Assembly (NCBI RefSeq): GCF_000969985.1
Contig: NZ_CP009526.1
Coordinates: 3,906,001 to 3,970,000, forward strand
Direction of reading: 5' to 3'
Origin: Methanosarcina barkeri str. Wiesmoor
Lineage (GTDB): Archaea; Halobacteriota; Methanosarcinia; Methanosarcinales; Methanosarcinaceae
Length of the DNA stretch: 64,000 nt
This document shows, one piece after another, positions 24,691 through 35,967 of this stretch. The position numbers and the translations under genes are program-made. How positions within the stretch are numbered: the first letter of the stretch is position 1; each line of letters opens with the position of its first letter. Under the pieces are notes generated by a model that saw only the letters and a list, made by a program, of their open reading frames with translations, had not been told where the DNA came from and made no database searches.

Positions 24691-26396
24691 CTGACCTTCC
24701 GCAGATGTCTCCTCAAAAGTAGTATTTTTCACAATTTTTCCCCATCAACCTTATTATCTTGCTCTTAATTTCATCCATGTTGGCAATTTTGGTTATCACC
24801 TTTGAATCAACTTCCACTTTTACTTCTGTAATTCCCCTCATCAGCACAAAAGCCCACTTCAAAGTGGGCTTTTGTGTTTGCTTTTTAACCTGATTCGGTA
24901 TTGTTTCCCCTGTTTCTTTTAGCTTCTCTCTCAGCTGCCATTCCGCTACCGAATAGACCATCAGAGTTAACACCATTATCATTGAGAGAGCTTCAATTCT
25001 TTGAGGTTTTTTCAAATAAACCTCGGAAACCCTGAAACTTTTATCCTTTATGAACCTGAAACCTTTTTCGACCTTGCTCTGGTTCTTGTAGTATTCCAGC
25101 ATCTTTTCAGCATCAAGATTGAGATCGTTACTTGCGATTATAAATCTTCCTTGATACTCTTTTTCATTCAATTCTATTTCGTAGTTTCGGACTGCTTTTG
25201 CATTTACAACATAGTGAATAATAGGCTTTTCATTCTTCTTTGGTCTTCCTATTTTACCGTTTTCCTTTGTTGAAACCGTGGAAATCTCTACGGTTTCCAG
25301 CAAACAATGAGGGTTCTCTTTCTTCCATCTTTCCAAAGCTGCTATGGCATCCTTTTCACAAGCAAACTTGATCTTTTTGAGGTCTTTGAGATCTTTCTGG
25401 GATTCATTAACCTTCTTTTGAATTTTTCTTTCAAAAGTAATGTCTTTTCTTTTCTGCATTTCTGTGGAATAAACAACTACCCATTTTTGCTTTATACCAC
25501 CATATTCAACAATAGTTTCGTAAAATGAATAGCGTGGATCCTCTCCGTTTTTGAACTCAAGATCAGAAATCAACAAGTTTTTTGCAAGGTTTAGTGTTGA
25601 AGGAACACGAGTAATCCACTTCATGCCTTCTATCATTGCTTTGATGTTTCCTTCAGAATATAGAGCACTATCAGCTATGTAGTAAACATCATCAGGAAAC
25701 GTTATGTTTTCTTGAAGTATTTTCATTGCCTCTATGATGGTTTCTTTGTCTGATGCGTTACCAGAGTAAGCTTTTGCAAATAGTGGAATTCCATACTGAT
25801 TTGTTATCATTCCAAGTCCAAAACGTTTCAGGTCATCTCTACCGTCTTTTGCGTGACCATATGTAATTTCGATGACAGAACCGTCATTGATATAATTGTA
25901 ATCTCCATGAAGGCTAAAATTAGTGGTGTCAGATTGGAGAAGTTGAGTTCTGATGTTAACAATTTCCAGCATTTTCAAGGAAAGCTTCATGAAAAGTTGA
26001 GTAGGATCTGCTTCATATATTGCGTCAAGAGTTCGACCTAAAACATCATCAGTAAGGTCAGAAGCACTGATCTCGGGGCCAAGAAGCCGTTCAACAGGAA
26101 GGGTTTCAAAGTACTGAGAGTACATGTAAAGACGACTGTCTACGAAACCAAGACAGTTAAGAATCATTGCCTTTACTACAATAGAGTGAGCTAACTTGTG
26201 CTGCCCAAACTTGGGCAGCACTTCATCAATCACTTTTCCAATTTCAAGTTCATCGTAAATGCCAGAAACGATTCCGTGATGATCAAGAGAACGTGTTGTA
26301 ACAAGCATAATGAAAACCGAAAAAAAGTATAATATTATGATAGTTATATATTAGCTAAAAAATAGATAAATTTGTCAGACATCTGCGGAAAGACAG
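24691..26396 (-). mobile_element. complete IS1634-family insertion sequence
   Basis: The 1706-bp element is bounded by 20-bp imperfect inverted repeats: left CTGACCTTCCGCAGATGTCT (24691-24710), with the right end at 26377-26396 matching 17 of 20 in reverse. It is flanked by the direct repeat CATTAT (24685-24690 and 26397-26402), a 6-bp target duplication. It encodes one intact transposase. It lies in spacer DNA and interrupts no visible gene. The exact target repeat and intact frame suggest recent insertion. Confidence 0.9.
24713..26308 (-). CDS. IS1634-family transposase (DDE, DUF4277 N-terminal domain)
   Basis: The 531-residue transposase has the N-terminal DUF4277 region (RSLDHHGIVSGIYDELEIG...) and an IS4-like DDE catalytic core: first Asp in LLQSDTTNFS, second in YYIADSALYS and Glu in the KVEKGFRFIKDKSFRV motif. 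Length is normal and no stop or frameshift is seen, so it is probably active. The stop codon lies only 2 nt from the left inverted repeat. Function: cut-and-paste mobilisation of the element. Confidence 0.93.
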   Translation of the reverse strand: MLVTTRSLDHHGIVSGIYDELEIGKVIDEVLPKFGQHKLAHSIVVKAMILNCLGFVDSRLYMYSQYFETLPVERLLGPEISASDLTDDVLGRTLDAIYEADPTQLFMKLSLKMLEIVNIRTQLLQSDTTNFSLHGDYNYINDGSVIEITYGHAKDGRDDLKRFGLGMITNQYGIPLFAKAYSGNASDKETIIEAMKILQENITFPDDVYYIADSALYSEGNIKAMIEGMKWITRVPSTLNLAKNLLISDLEFKNGEDPRYSFYETIVEYGGIKQKWVVVYSTEMQKRKDITFERKIQKKVNESQKDLKDLKKIKFACEKDAIAALERWKKENPHCLLETVEISTVSTKENGKIGRPKKNEKPIIHYVVNAKAVRNYEIELNEKEYQGRFIIASNDLNLDAEKMLEYYKNQSKVEKGFRFIKDKSFRVSEVYLKKPQRIEALSMIMVLTLMVYSVAEWQLREKLKETGETIPNQVKKQTQKPTLKWAFVLMRGITEVKVEVDSKVITKIANMDEIKSKIIRLMGKNCEKYYF

Positions 26397-28023: not shown

Positions 28024-28251
28024 ATGGCAGAAATGGAAATCGATGTTAGAGGGCAGACTTGCCCAGTTCCACTGGTAGAGTGCAGAAAAGCCTTAAAAAA
28101 AGCCTCTCCAGGGGATCTTGTCATTGTGAAGGGGACACATCCGGCGTCAAAAAAAGAAATTCCTATGGCCTGTGAAGCAATGGGGCTCAAAGTGCTGGAG
28201 ATTGAAGATAAAGAAGGAGGCAAAGAGTGGGAGATAAAGATCCGGAGATAA
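28024..28251 (+). CDS. TusA/SirA-family sulfurtransferase
   Basis: A 75-residue protein with the TusA signature DVRGQTCPVPL (persulfide-carrying C13) and the downstream MACEAMGLKVLEIE strand-helix. TusA proteins carry sulfur as persulfide from a donor to tRNA thiolation, molybdopterin or Fe-S pathways. A strong GGGGGG ribosome binding site precedes ATG 28024. It lies 12 nt before the DsrE-like gene: the pair forms a sulfur relay unit, followed 240 bp later by the cysteine desulfurase homologue and the IscU fusion. Confidence 0.93.
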   Translation: MAEMEIDVRGQTCPVPLVECRKALKKASPGDLVIVKGTHPASKKEIPMACEAMGLKVLEIEDKEGGKEWEIKIRR

Positions 28252-28263
28252 ACCGGAAGAGGA

Positions 28264-28689
28264 ATGAAAATGGGGGAAAAGACTGTCATTATCCTGCATA
28301 GTGGCGATATGGATAAGGTATACAGCGCACTTATAATTGCAAACGGAGCACTGGCAATGGGCATGGAAGCCTCCATATACTTTACTTTCTGGGGGCTAAT
28401 GCGTTTGAAGAAAGGAGAGCTTGATAAGGGACCACTCTCCAAGATGAATATGCTGGGGCTTGGCAGGCAGATGATTAAACAAAGAATGAACAAAGCCAAT
28501 GTTGCTTCACTTGAAAGACTGATGAATGATTTCAAGGAACTTGGCGGAAAAATAATTGCCTGTGAGATGACCATGGAAATTATGGGCTTGAGTAAAGAGG
28601 AGCTTCGAACGGAGTGGATAGATGAATGGGGAGCTGTAGGTTCATATATTCAGGAAGCAAGGGATGCAAACGTAACTCTCTTTATCTGA
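28264..28689 (+). CDS. DsrE/DsrF-like (DsrE2) sulfur carrier protein
   Basis: The 141-residue protein matches the DsrE2 group: an N-terminal KTVIILHSGDMDKVYSAL strand-helix, a hydrophobic IYFTFWGLMRL segment, a MIKQRMNKANV linker and the conserved Cys in GGKIIACEMTMEIMGL (C100). DsrE2 proteins pass persulfide sulfur to TusA, and the gene follows tusA here with 12 nt spacing. The hydrophobic segments suggest membrane association. GGAAGAGG precedes the start; a second in-frame ATG at 28270 is possible. Confidence 0.88.
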   Translation: MKMGEKTVIILHSGDMDKVYSALIIANGALAMGMEASIYFTFWGLMRLKKGELDKGPLSKMNMLGLGRQMIKQRMNKANVASLERLMNDFKELGGKIIACEMTMEIMGLSKEELRTEWIDEWGAVGSYIQEARDANVTLFI

Positions 28690-28929: not shown

Positions 28930-30096
28930 ATATTTGAGAATATAAAATATCTTGACAATGCCGCATGCACACGCTTGGATGAGCGGGTACTCGAAATAAT
29001 GAAACCTTATTTTTTTGACACCTATGCAGTCGCAACATCGGAATTTGGCTATTCTATGGGTATTGACGCAAAAGAAGCACTCGAAAGATCCCGAGAAAGC
29101 ATAGCTTCAAAGCTTGATGCAAACTCGGAAGAACTTATCTTCACTTCAGGGTCCACTGAATCAAGCAACACAGCACTTAAAGGCGTTGCCCTGGCTCTTA
29201 AAGAAAAGAAAGGGAAACATGTTGTCGTTTCGAAAATAGAAGATTTTCCTGTGCTAAATACAGCAAAAGCTCTCGAGAGACAGGGGTTCAGTGCGACTTT
29301 CCTGGATGTCGACGCTGAAGGGTTTGTAGATCTCGAAGGGCTTAAAAATGCGATTACAAAGGAAACGGTTCTTGTCTCAATTCAACAGGGAAACCAGGAA
29401 ATCGGAACAGTGCAGGATTTGAAAGCTATCTCGGAAATATGTGAAGAAAAAGATGTACTCCTGCACACGGATGCTACTCATAGTTTTACCCGGCTCCCTC
29501 TCAATGTAAAAGAACTGCCTGTAGACCTGATCACAATGTCAGCCCATACCATCCACGGTCCAAGAGGAATAGGTGCGCTTTACATCAGGAAAGATACCCC
29601 AATAATCAAACTTATGGATGGAGGTTTCCAGGAGTTTAACCTGAGGGCAGGAGTCGAAAATATTCCATCAGCCGTTGGTTTTGCAAAAGCTGTAGAACTT
29701 GTAACCGAAGAGGAAAACAGAAGGCTCAAAGCAATGAGAGATCGCGTAATCGATAAAGCCCTCTCCAAGATTCCGGACGTTACCCTCAATGGAAGCCGGG
29801 AAAAACGCCTGCCTCAGAACGCAAACCTGACTTTCCACTACGTAGAAGGTGAATCCGTAACTTTGCATATGGATATGAGAGGTTTTGCAGTAAGCACGGG
29901 TTCAGCCTGTTTTAGCCGCTCCCTTGAAGCCAGCCATGTAATCAGGGGTATAGGAGGAGATCATGAGAGAGCACATGGTTCAGTACGCTTTACCTTTGGG
30001 CGCTATAATAACATTGAGGATGCTGATGCAGCAATTGAAGCAATGAGTGAGATAGTGGCAAGGCTAAGGGAAATAAGCCCACTTGCAAGGAAATGA
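28930..30096 (+). CDS. cysteine desulfurase homologue lacking the PLP lysine (IscS/NifS family)
   Basis: The frame encodes a class V aminotransferase-fold protein of 388 residues if it starts at ATA 28930, which has GGAG 5 nt upstream. The first in-frame TTG (28975) would remove the conserved N-terminal YLDNAAC motif, and no ATG or GTG is available. Compared with E. coli IscS numbering, the persulfide Cys is kept (STGSACFSRS, C327), as are HTDAT and GSVRFTFGR. The PLP-binding Lys is Thr207 (SAHTIHGPRG instead of SAHK), the His over the cofactor is Asp105, and the Gln of DATQ is His. The Archaeoglobus fulgidus IscS homologue is a known lysine-less precedent. It probably acts with the downstream IscU as an assembly or sulfur-accepting partner rather than a normal desulfurase. 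Confidence 0.85.
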   Translation: MFENIKYLDNAACTRLDERVLEIMKPYFFDTYAVATSEFGYSMGIDAKEALERSRESIASKLDANSEELIFTSGSTESSNTALKGVALALKEKKGKHVVVSKIEDFPVLNTAKALERQGFSATFLDVDAEGFVDLEGLKNAITKETVLVSIQQGNQEIGTVQDLKAISEICEEKDVLLHTDATHSFTRLPLNVKELPVDLITMSAHTIHGPRGIGALYIRKDTPIIKLMDGGFQEFNLRAGVENIPSAVGFAKAVELVTEEENRRLKAMRDRVIDKALSKIPDVTLNGSREKRLPQNANLTFHYVEGESVTLHMDMRGFAVSTGSACFSRSLEASHVIRGIGGDHERAHGSVRFTFGRYNNIEDADAAIEAMSEIVARLREISPLARK

Positions 30097-30201
30097 ATGG
30101 AAAAAAGTAGAAAAAATAGTAAGAGGAAGCAGAATCCAGGTAATCAAATAAGGCAATCAGAGAAGATGATCAGAGAAGACAGGCAGAGAATGCAAGCAAG
30201 A

Positions 30202-30238
30202 AGACAGGCAGAGAAGACAGGCAGAGAAGACAGGCAGA
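30202..30238. repeat. 13-bp purine-rich tandem repeat
   Basis: AGACAGGCAGAGA occurs at 30202 and 30215, then AGACAGGCAGA at 30228, with scattered related copies from 30174. It lies between the cysteine desulfurase homologue and the IscU gene, in the likely leader of the latter. Confidence 0.7.
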
Positions 30239-30279
30239 AAAGAAGATTAGAGAAAGTTACAAAAATATAAGGTGAGACA

Positions 30280-30915
30280 ATGAAGTTTCCTTACAGCCAA
30301 AAAGTACTGGAGCATTTCAAGAACCCGCACAATGTGGGAAAGATCGAGAACCCTGACGGGAAAGGCCTTGAAGGAAGCCCGGCTTGCGGAGACATGGTAG
30401 CGGTTTACATTAAGGTCAATCCTGATACCAAGATTATTGAAGATATAAAATTCGAATCTTATGGCTGCGCCTCAAACATTGCTACGGGCTCGGTTATTAC
30501 AGATATTGCAAAAGGAAAGACCCTTGATGAGGCAAAGAAAATAACATGGAAACAGGCTTCAGAAGAACTTGGAGGGCTCCCTCCGATCAAAGCTCACTGC
30601 TCAGTTCTTGCAGTTGAGGGCCTGCGGGCCGCAATCAAAGACTATGAAGAAAAACACGGGCTTATAACCGAGAGAGAGCCTACCACAGAAAAAGTTATCA
30701 GGAACCGGCTAAAGCACGTTATGAACCCCCTGACCGGCCTTGACATAATTCGTACAAACCTTATCCTAAAAACAAGCGTTGAAGAGGGAGTTGTGAGAGT
30801 GGTTGTAGACCTGCCTGCAAACCATCAGTTTGCTCCAGCAATAAAAGAGGATATTATGGAAAAACTGGGGTCTTTATGGGATGTTGAAAGAGTTGATGTA
30901 GTGTTTACGGCCTGA
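30280..30915 (+). CDS. IscU-type Fe-S scaffold fused to a MIP18-like domain
   Basis: The 211-residue protein begins with a complete IscU domain (1-130): the three ligand cysteines are C36 (SPACGDMV), C63 (SYGCASNI) and C107 (KAHCSVL), with the scaffold Asp38. Residues about 140-211 match the MIP18/DUF59 fold (LKHVMNPLTGLDIIRTNL, then VRVVVDLPANHQFAPAIKEDI), a family that helps deliver Fe-S clusters. The fusion couples cluster building and delivery in one chain. It follows the lysine-less IscS homologue on the same strand, 183 bp apart. AAGGTGAG lies just upstream of ATG 30280. Confidence 0.9.
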   Translation: MKFPYSQKVLEHFKNPHNVGKIENPDGKGLEGSPACGDMVAVYIKVNPDTKIIEDIKFESYGCASNIATGSVITDIAKGKTLDEAKKITWKQASEELGGLPPIKAHCSVLAVEGLRAAIKDYEEKHGLITEREPTTEKVIRNRLKHVMNPLTGLDIIRTNLILKTSVEEGVVRVVVDLPANHQFAPAIKEDIMEKLGSLWDVERVDVVFTA

Positions 30916-34473: not shown

Positions 34474-35967
34474 TCAAATGGAGTAAACCTTCCGATAACT
34501 AAGTTTGTTTTGACGTTCGTGGAAGTAGTCCTTATCAAGAAATGTATTCATTTGCAGCTTTAAAGGAATATGTCTGTAAATCCTGGTTGTAGATAAGAGC
34601 AAGAGTTCATTAATCTCTGTTCTGAAATTCCACCTTCTAGAAGTGCTTCTATTCCAGTATTTGTTGACGATCCAATCTTTGGATTTATTCGGATGTCTTC
34701 TTTTAGCCCATTTCCATAACAGTTCCCATATTATGTGGTCAAGTTTCTGGAAAGTATCCGAAGAAACCACAGAATTATGGTAGTTGGACCAGCCTCTTAT
34801 TATAGGATTTAGTTTGGAAATTAAGACTTTCTGAGACCATGCCATTCCTTCCGTTATGGTTTGACTAATTGTTTCAGTAAATCTTTTAATGGACTTTTTG
34901 GAAGGTTTGATCAGAAGCTTACCTTTATACTTGCGGAAATTCCAGCCGAGGAAGTCAAAGCCTTCATTAATGTTTGTGATAAAGGTTTTATCATCGGAGA
35001 GCTCAAGACCTCGCTCTTTAAGAAAAGCAACAACTTCGTCCTTAATTTCCCCTGCAGTTTCTTTGGAATTAGCAGTGACTATGAAATCGTCAGCGTATCT
35101 TATGAAGTTGACTTTCTTGGAATTTTTCCCTTTTTTAGGGTACTTAACAAGAAGCATTTTCTCGATACCATCCAATGTCATATTAGCCAGAATAGGAGAG
35201 ATAATCCCACCTTGTGGCGTACCTGCTTTCGTTGGATTCAGATGACGTTTATAAATAAATCCCGCTTTGAGAAATTGAGTTAGTATAGCTTTGTCTATTG
35301 GGATATTAGTCAGCAACCACTGATGATTTATATTATCGAAACATCCTCTAATATCACCTTCCAAAATCCATTGAGCTGAAGTCTTTTTACTCAGACATAG
35401 AAAGATTTGCTGACAGGCATCCTTGGTACTTCGATGTTTTCTGAAGCCAAAAGACCGTAGGTCAGACTTAATTTCAGCTACTGGTTCCAGAGCCAGTGAA
35501 TATAAAGATTGGATAGCCCTGTCATACATTGTAGGGATACCTAAGGGACGTTTCTTCGTCTTACCAGGTTTATTGATAAAGACTCGTTTAAGCGGTTTGG
35601 CTTTGTATCTTTTACCAGTGAGACTAAGGACAGCTTTCATTTTGGAGGCAGAACTTAACCATTTTTCACCATCAATTCCAGATGTCCTTTTTCCTTTATT
35701 TTGAGTAACTCTTCTTACTGCCAAAAGTTTGGCGAAGTAGGAGTGAGTCAGTAAATATTGTAATCTCTTGACAAGATTCCATTTGTTTTGTAGAACTGCT
35801 TTTGTAATCCGAGTTTGCAACTTATTAACTCTCTTTTCTATTTGATACCAGTTGATGTTTTTCCACATCTGGCAAAGTTGAGCGTTTGTAAGCTTCTTAT
35901 CCAGAAAGGATATCGTTGAACAACTTACATTCAGAAGTTTGCCTCCTTTCATACAATAGAATACCAA
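34474..35967 (-). CDS. group II intron reverse transcriptase/maturase without HNH endonuclease domain
   Basis: The protein of up to 497 residues has the N-terminal RT-0 region (WKNINWYQIEKRVNKLQ), the RT palm with GDIRGCFDNI, AGTPQGGIISP and the catalytic YADD, and a maturase domain X (SKLNPIIRGWSNYH). The C-terminal Zn/HNH endonuclease module (CxxC...H) is absent; the frame ends at TGA just before a run of 12-13 A. Endonuclease-minus introns can use nascent replication strands for priming. The true start is uncertain: ATG 35952 precedes the GGAGG. It is required for intron splicing and mobility. Confidence 0.9.
   Translation of the reverse strand: MVFYCMKGGKLLNVSCSTISFLDKKLTNAQLCQMWKNINWYQIEKRVNKLQTRITKAVLQNKWNLVKRLQYLLTHSYFAKLLAVRRVTQNKGKRTSGIDGEKWLSSASKMKAVLSLTGKRYKAKPLKRVFINKPGKTKKRPLGIPTMYDRAIQSLYSLALEPVAEIKSDLRSFGFRKHRSTKDACQQIFLCLSKKTSAQWILEGDIRGCFDNINHQWLLTNIPIDKAILTQFLKAGFIYKRHLNPTKAGTPQGGIISPILANMTLDGIEKMLLVKYPKKGKNSKKVNFIRYADDFIVTANSKETAGEIKDEVVAFLKERGLELSDDKTFITNINEGFDFLGWNFRKYKGKLLIKPSKKSIKRFTETISQTITEGMAWSQKVLISKLNPIIRGWSNYHNSVVSSDTFQKLDHIIWELLWKWAKRRHPNKSKDWIVNKYWNRSTSRRWNFRTEINELLLLSTTRIYRHIPLKLQMNTFLDKDYFHERQNKLSYRKVYSI

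Follow-up and report, generated by a model that had tools for sequence, protein, structure and literature searches.

A 64,000-nucleotide stretch of the genome of Methanosarcina barkeri str. Wiesmoor (contig NZ_CP009526.1, positions 3,906,001 to 3,970,000; hereafter the window) encodes a homologue of the cysteine desulfurase IscS, here called IscS*, in which several residues of the pocket for pyridoxal 5′-phosphate (PLP), including the Schiff-base lysine, are replaced. It lies beside genes for the sulfur carrier TusA, the sulfurtransferase DsrE2 and an IscU scaffold fused to a MIP18-like domain. The link of TusA, DsrE2 and the IscU-MIP18 fusion with iscS* is real and conserved, and the resulting module is common to many anaerobic archaea and bacteria. 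We consider it probable that these genes specify a desulfurase-dead variant of the iron–sulfur cluster (ISC) system of anaerobes, in which TusA and DsrE2 deliver sulfur to Cys327 of IscS* and thence to IscU.

Residues of the cofactor pocket are replaced in IscS*

The iscS* product is an IscS-type homologue (Pfam Aminotran_5, E 6.7e-67), whose residues were assigned by aligning it with IscS of E. coli and of A. fulgidus and with the canonical IscS copies of the same genome. The positions in the window, with E. coli IscS numbering for the reference residues, are as follows.

28930..30096, + strand: iscS*, lysine-less IscS of 388 amino acids, counted from the ATA at 28930
29242..29244, + strand: codon GAT of Asp105, at the position of the PLP-stacking His104
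29479..29481, + strand: codon CAT of His184, at the position of Gln183
29548..29550, + strand: codon ACC of Thr207, at the position of the Schiff-base Lys206
29908..29910, + strand: codon TGT of Cys327, the mobile-loop persulfide or cluster-ligand Cys (Cys328 in E. coli)

These residues lie in the motifs KIEDFP (Asp105), DATHS (His184), SAHTIHG (Thr207) and STGSACFS (Cys327), the last corresponding to the SSGSACTS-type loop of group I desulfurases. A preliminary description of this DNA had reported the exchange of the lysine for Thr, of the stacking His for Asp and of the Gln of DATQ for His, with the persulfide Cys kept; translation and alignment confirmed all four statements. It had also proposed a comparison with homologues. 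Scanning a single genome for each species yielded 80 iscS* loci with 64–96% identity to the window protein, and the lysine was absent from all 80; 87 distinct sequences were obtained when further genomes were added. Among these 87, the Lys206 position is occupied by Thr in 80, Leu in 6, Ser in 1 and Lys in none. Asp105 and His184 are each present in 87/87, whereas His occupies the former position in 27/27 sequences of canonical IscS and also in a second lysine-less family, the Archaeoglobus type described below. The phosphate-binding Thr243 is gone too: the window protein has Val242, and the clade mostly has Leu, Val, Ile or Met, with Thr in only 2 of the 87 sequences. The mobile-loop Cys is invariant in all three classes. 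The best fold matches of the IscS* model, whose loop regions have low predicted local distance difference test (pLDDT) values, were NFS1, IscS and the A. fulgidus structure 4eb5.

The E. coli IscS variants H104Q, Q183E and K206A each lack desulfurase activity (PMC9978102). Because all three of these positions are altered in IscS*, together with Thr243, there is good support for a loss of desulfurase activity, and PLP-dependent cysteine desulfuration by IscS* appears very unlikely, as had been anticipated when the window was first described. PLP itself is presumably absent. Speculatively, the invariant new pair Asp105/His184 may plug the emptied cofactor pocket or re-use it, for example for a metal.

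It is very improbable that another residue replaces the lysine or that IscS* runs a different PLP-type reaction. Asp181, His206, Asn155 and Arg358 are still present, and E. coli K206A retains some PLP and shows intermediates, with His104 proposed as the stand-in (PMC9978102). However, His104 is itself Asp in IscS*, Gln183 is His and almost no member of the clade keeps Thr243, and the sole basic residue in the motif, residue 212, is that of the usual GP[KR]G site, where Arg, Lys and His all occur.

IscS* forms a single conserved clade in archaea and bacteria

In the genomes examined, a clean identity gap separated the iscS* group (at least 63% identity to the window protein) from canonical IscS (at most 50%), and the group formed one clade with 100/100 support and a long stem (IQ-TREE). 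Within the order, iscS* was present in 79 of 149 genomes, all of them members of the Methanosarcinaceae, including 26 of 27 in the genus of the window. Further archaeal holders were Methanofastidiosum, Theionarchaea and an Altiarchaeales genome, and bacterial holders were found in Chloroflexota, Bacillota (Acetobacterium and others), Thermodesulfobacteriota, Atribacterota, Actinomycetota, Nitrospirota and Myxococcota; many holders are metagenome-assembled genomes (MAGs). Among bacteria the gene is scattered, being carried by 4 of 151 genomes of Chloroflexota and by 12 of 56 genomes of the order that includes Acetobacterium, which is what a horizontally moving module would give. The suggestion that the lysine-less IscS may reflect a wider archaeal theme in methanogens needs correction: an archaeal-only or methanogen theme was rejected, as many of the relatives found are bacterial.

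That iscS* is a decaying paralogue or a sequencing error is hardly credible. In its favour, the gene has no conventional start codon (see below), the window genome has canonical IscS paralogues, and one Methanosarcina genome (G149) holds broken copies of both iscS* and dsrE2. Set against these points, the ratio of nonsynonymous to synonymous substitution rates (dN/dS) is 0.03–0.08, mostly 0.05–0.08 and about 0.05 overall, between Methanosarcina-type sequences, which indicates strong purifying selection; the 87 relatives share the same substitutions; and IscS1, the apparent counterpart in M. acetivorans, is listed as detected in the proteome (PMC7585200). The conservation and dN/dS refute a pseudogene or sequencing error for the clade. 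A misread codon 207 in particular, which had been raised as a possible source of error, is ruled out, since the lysine is missing from 80/80 loci and the Thr207 codon varies only synonymously in Methanosarcinaceae (ACC/ACT/ACG).

Genes for TusA, DsrE2 and an IscU-MIP18 fusion accompany iscS*

The other genes of the module in the window are as follows.

28024..28251, + strand: tusA, sulfur carrier TusA of 75 amino acids with the persulfide Cys13 in CPVP (Pfam TusA, E 2.4e-21)
28264..28689, + strand: dsrE2, DsrE2-type sulfurtransferase of 141 amino acids with Cys100 (Pfam DrsE_2, E 1e-37; DsrE, E 1.4e-6)
30280..30915, + strand: iscU::MIP18, IscU scaffold fused to an FeS_assembly_P (MIP18/SufT-type) domain (NifU_N/IscU, E 3.1e-43; PF01883, E 1.8e-13)

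Every Cys that could take part in a sulfur relay is invariant among the homologues aligned: TusA Cys13 and DsrE2 Cys100 (19 homologues each), IscS* Cys327, and IscU Cys36, Cys63 and Cys107, the last three together with Asp38, Lys104 and His106 (27 homologues), so that the scaffold has the three Cys, the Asp and the LPPxK..HC motif of IscU. In the same 27 homologues, no conserved Cys was found inside the FeS_assembly_P domain. The AlphaFold model of the fusion is confident (pLDDT 89).

Within 3 kb of iscS*, TusA was encoded in 74, DsrE in 70 and IscU in 79 of the 80 loci, several of the missing neighbours being explained by contig ends. The commonest gene order is tusA-dsrE2-iscS*-iscU::MIP18, with only tens of bases between the genes in many bacteria; Anaerolineae and a few others have iscS*-iscU::MIP18-tusA-(dsrE2). 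Together with the Pfam matches, this linkage confirmed the neighbourhood first described for the window, namely TusA, a DsrE-like protein and an IscU-MIP18 fusion. No further recurrent neighbour was found outside the genus among the loci compared, and a HIT protein was rejected as part of the module since it is a neighbour only in Methanosarcinaceae.

Across the order (149 genomes), this DsrE2 was found in 76 of the 79 holders of iscS* and in 0 of the 70 genomes that lack iscS*, counts that come from related genomes and are not independent samples. In the genus of Methanococcoides vulcani, iscS*-iscU::MIP18 stands alone, and the three genomes inspected in detail (G094, G097 and G098) carry tusA next to dsrE2 at another chromosomal site. 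In the Methanosarcina genome G149 (C17:76552-78248), dsrE2 and iscS* are both interrupted, as if the module decays together. The co-occurrence, the split arrangement and the joint breakage argue for a shared function.

A second lysine-less family is also linked to TusA and DsrE

A search with A. fulgidus IscS retrieved a second lysine-less family, which forms its own clade (100/98). Its members have Asp at Lys206 (SSND[IML]YG), Ala at Gln183 (DATA[SA]) and Asn at His205, with His104 and Thr243 (or Ser) kept; the window protein does not carry this signature. TusA is encoded at 27 and DsrE at 16 of 30 Archaeoglobus-type loci, and at least one of the two at 29 of 30, as checked with Pfam. In A. 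fulgidus itself (genome G280), the IscS-1 locus (L242, 3146-5365) reads tusA-dsrE-iscS-iscU, and the crystallised IscS-2 (L209, 5976-7951) has a DsrE gene directly upstream, in the order dsrE-iscS-iscU. In contrast, neither TusA nor DsrE was found within 3 kb of canonical, Lys-bearing IscS at any of the 23 loci of this small sample. Because both the Archaeoglobus-type and the iscS* loci are linked to these carriers and the canonical loci are not, lysine loss and TusA/DsrE linkage go together.

Forcing the two lysine-less types into a joint clade costs only 4.0 log units (p = 0.41 in the approximately unbiased test), so that a shared origin is not rejected and independent origins are not established, although the two pockets are disabled by different substitutions. 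The Archaeoglobus parallel drawn in the preliminary description is correct in that A. fulgidus IscS is lysine-less, and needs amending in that it belongs to a different clade. A separate observation was made in a Methanohalophilus MAG (L131, G001 C9), where a SufS-type (group II) protein has Ala at the PLP lysine (PGHALLG) with RSGYHC kept; this is a single sequence, which may reflect an error or a further inactive desulfurase.

A proposed sulfur relay through a desulfurase-dead IscS and its alternatives

In the relay that we favour, the PLP-dependent desulfurase step would have been dropped, with IscS* still having the fold of IscS, IscU as its partner and Cys327 in the mobile loop. The sulfur would come from sulfide or sulfane sulfur and not from cysteine via IscS*, would be carried as a persulfide on TusA Cys13 and DsrE2 Cys100, and would be handed to Cys327 and then to the three-Cys site of IscU. 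Cys327 may double as a transient cluster ligand, and the fused MIP18 domain would help to pass the cluster on to its targets. We infer in what order and which way the sulfur flows, what donates it and that MIP18 acts in delivery. That TusA and IscU can each dock on this fold has precedent, since crystal complexes of IscS with each (3lvj and 3lvl) were among the fold matches of IscS*. The earlier proposal that the module makes clusters from sulfide can be kept in the sense that free sulfide may be used, but the close link with TusA and DsrE favours sulfur bound to a carrier as persulfide.

The main rival is a passive co-scaffold, in which IscS* lends Cys327 as a fourth ligand and shapes the IscU site, free sulfide feeds the cluster, and TusA and DsrE2 work elsewhere, for example in tRNA thiolation or sulfur trafficking. 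In the A. fulgidus IscS-IscU D35A structure, the cluster is held by three IscU Cys and IscS Cys321 (PMC9769115), and the same role has already been proposed for M. acetivorans IscS1 in a paper that, citing the original reports, describes A. fulgidus IscS as having no desulfurase activity (PMC7585200). However, a co-scaffold leaves unexplained both the near-perfect match of DsrE2 and iscS* within the order and the TusA/DsrE linkage that distinguishes the two lysine-less clades from the canonical loci. We regard it as unlikely, while still the most serious competitor.

Alternatively, IscS* may be a specialised receiver at the end of a relay from a canonical desulfurase, with IscS2 or IscS3 loading cysteine sulfur onto TusA, from which it would pass through DsrE2 to IscS*-IscU1. 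E. coli IscS loads TusA, and the window genome encodes, besides IscS*, two canonical IscS proteins with the Lys, one SufS-type enzyme and a single TusA, that of the module (the only PF01206 match in the whole genome). Other genomes fit this scheme poorly. Canonical IscS is missing from those of the Methanococcoides genus, which have SufS-type enzymes alone, with the Lys and RSGYHC/RTGHHC motifs. In 4 of 5 Methanofastidiosum MAGs with full-length iscS*, no other cysteine desulfurase was found at E 1e-12, and a family-profile search of two of these MAGs found only other class-V proteins; the absence is provisional because the genomes are MAGs. Deletion of iscSU2 in M. acetivorans gave only a cysteine-specific defect (PMC10500019). 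Taken together, these observations make a cysteine-fed relay improbable, more so than the co-scaffold. In a Dehalococcoidales genome (L202, G011 C1:1058000-1063800), a canonical-type IscS domain was seen inside an open frame of 1226 residues, beside a SufS-type gene.

Several points weigh against the favoured relay through TusA and DsrE2. It is argued from sequence, and TusA and DsrE2 could serve another pathway that merely shares the operon. The M. acetivorans proteomes list IscS1 but not IscU1 (PMC7585200). Canonical IscS or SufS-type enzymes are also present in most genomes with iscS*, which therefore usually have another route besides the module, and the Methanofastidiosum evidence rests on MAGs. 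The 23 canonical loci come in many cases from genomes that also hold the module. Finally, the two lysine-less clades may stem from one event, in which case their shared TusA/DsrE link is perhaps one observation and not two.

Relation to known systems

The locus is apparently the same as isc1 of M. acetivorans, which encodes a lysine-less IscS1 with the STGSACFS loop and a 24.2 kDa IscU1 (MA0808/MA0807) and is clustered with further genes in an arrangement common to M. barkeri and M. mazei (PMC7585200). The missing PLP residues of IscS1, which formed inclusion bodies, and the A. fulgidus parallel were published there in 2020, and the neighbours were called genes of unknown function. The lysine loss in IscS1 was therefore already known; the surrounding tusA–dsrE2–iscS*–iscU::MIP18 system is the part that we did not find published. 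In the open-access literature, outside which most subscription papers lie, nothing linked a lysine-less IscS to TusA or DsrE2 beyond the A. fulgidus work and PMC7585200, and no report was found of the MIP18 fusion in this IscU, of bacterial iscS* members or of the correlation between lysine loss and TusA/DsrE.

The closest solved structure by sequence (E 8.9e-99), and a top fold match, is A. fulgidus IscS-IscU (PDB 4EB5/4EB7/4HVK; D199K mutant 4R5F). Its IscS is 41–46% identical to IscS* and shares with it the absent lysine, the retained loop Cys and, as cited above, the reported inactivity; its pocket changes are milder, and its IscU has no MIP18 domain. Canonical IscS/NifS proteins (group I, including E. 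coli IscS and NFS1) share the fold (template modelling score about 0.83), the IscU partner and the loop Cys, but have the Lys206, His104, Gln183 and Thr243 that are gone from IscS*. IscS* falls far below the NCBIfam NifS/IscS equivalog cut-offs (428 vs 531; 379 vs 643).

The TusA-DsrE2 pairs of sulfur oxidisers, usually found with rhodanese, Hdr or Dsr genes, are homologous to the window pair, and the Cys are invariant in window-type homologues. Unlike those pairs, the window pair is encoded with IscS* and IscU, and its DsrE2 scores below the NCBIfam SulfCarrDsrE2 cut-off (67.9 vs 210). The SMS system (SufBC) makes clusters from sulfide without a desulfurase (PMC12192291) and has neither IscS nor IscU, and MIS as described has a cysteine desulfurase, whereas the module combines an ISC-type scaffold, an apparently dead desulfurase and sulfur carriers.

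These comparisons bear on how sulfide-grown Methanosarcina makes its many iron–sulfur clusters. In M. acetivorans, SufBC is dispensable and loss of iscSU2 is harmful only on cysteine (PMC10500019). Because neither system explains assembly on sulfide, the module is the natural remaining candidate and could be the missing sulfide-fed system. A broader proposal, which we advance tentatively and with rather more doubt than confidence, is that both lysine-less lineages represent a widespread, distinct ISC variant. In this proposal, TusA and DsrE2 would reverse the usual IscS-to-TusA flow and load inorganic sulfur from sulfide onto an IscS free of PLP, which would assemble clusters on IscU, and this would be the Methanosarcina sulfide-fed system that the SufBC and IscSU2 deletions missed. 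The module offers a concrete, testable alternative to cysteine as the sulfur source for ISC-type assembly. It also recasts the crystallised A. fulgidus IscS as a member of one of two putatively desulfurase-dead IscS families that travel with sulfur carriers in Bacteria and Archaea.

Start codon of iscS* and flanking sequences

Between the upstream stop and codon 16, the window iscS* frame contains no ATG, GTG or TTG. The first conventional start is the TTG at 28975, use of which would remove the conserved N-terminus, and the start of relatives aligns with the ATA at 28930-28932. This ATA is found behind a strong GGAGG-type site in every locus of Methanosarcina and near relatives, being common to 21 Methanosarcinaceae loci (L005-L022, L028 and L060); the corresponding codon is GTG in Methanohalophilus (L023) and ATG in Methanococcoides (L026). 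From these alignments, iscS* appears to initiate at ATA, and a conserved AUA start, if true, would be unusual.

A 13-bp tandem repeat (CAGAGAAGACAGG, 5.7 copies) at 30171-30243 takes up much of the spacer that separates iscS* from iscU::MIP18. The region is flanked by open reading frames at 24713-26308 and 34474-35967, both on the − strand, that resemble an insertion sequence transposase and a group II intron reverse transcriptase, as judged from their sequences.
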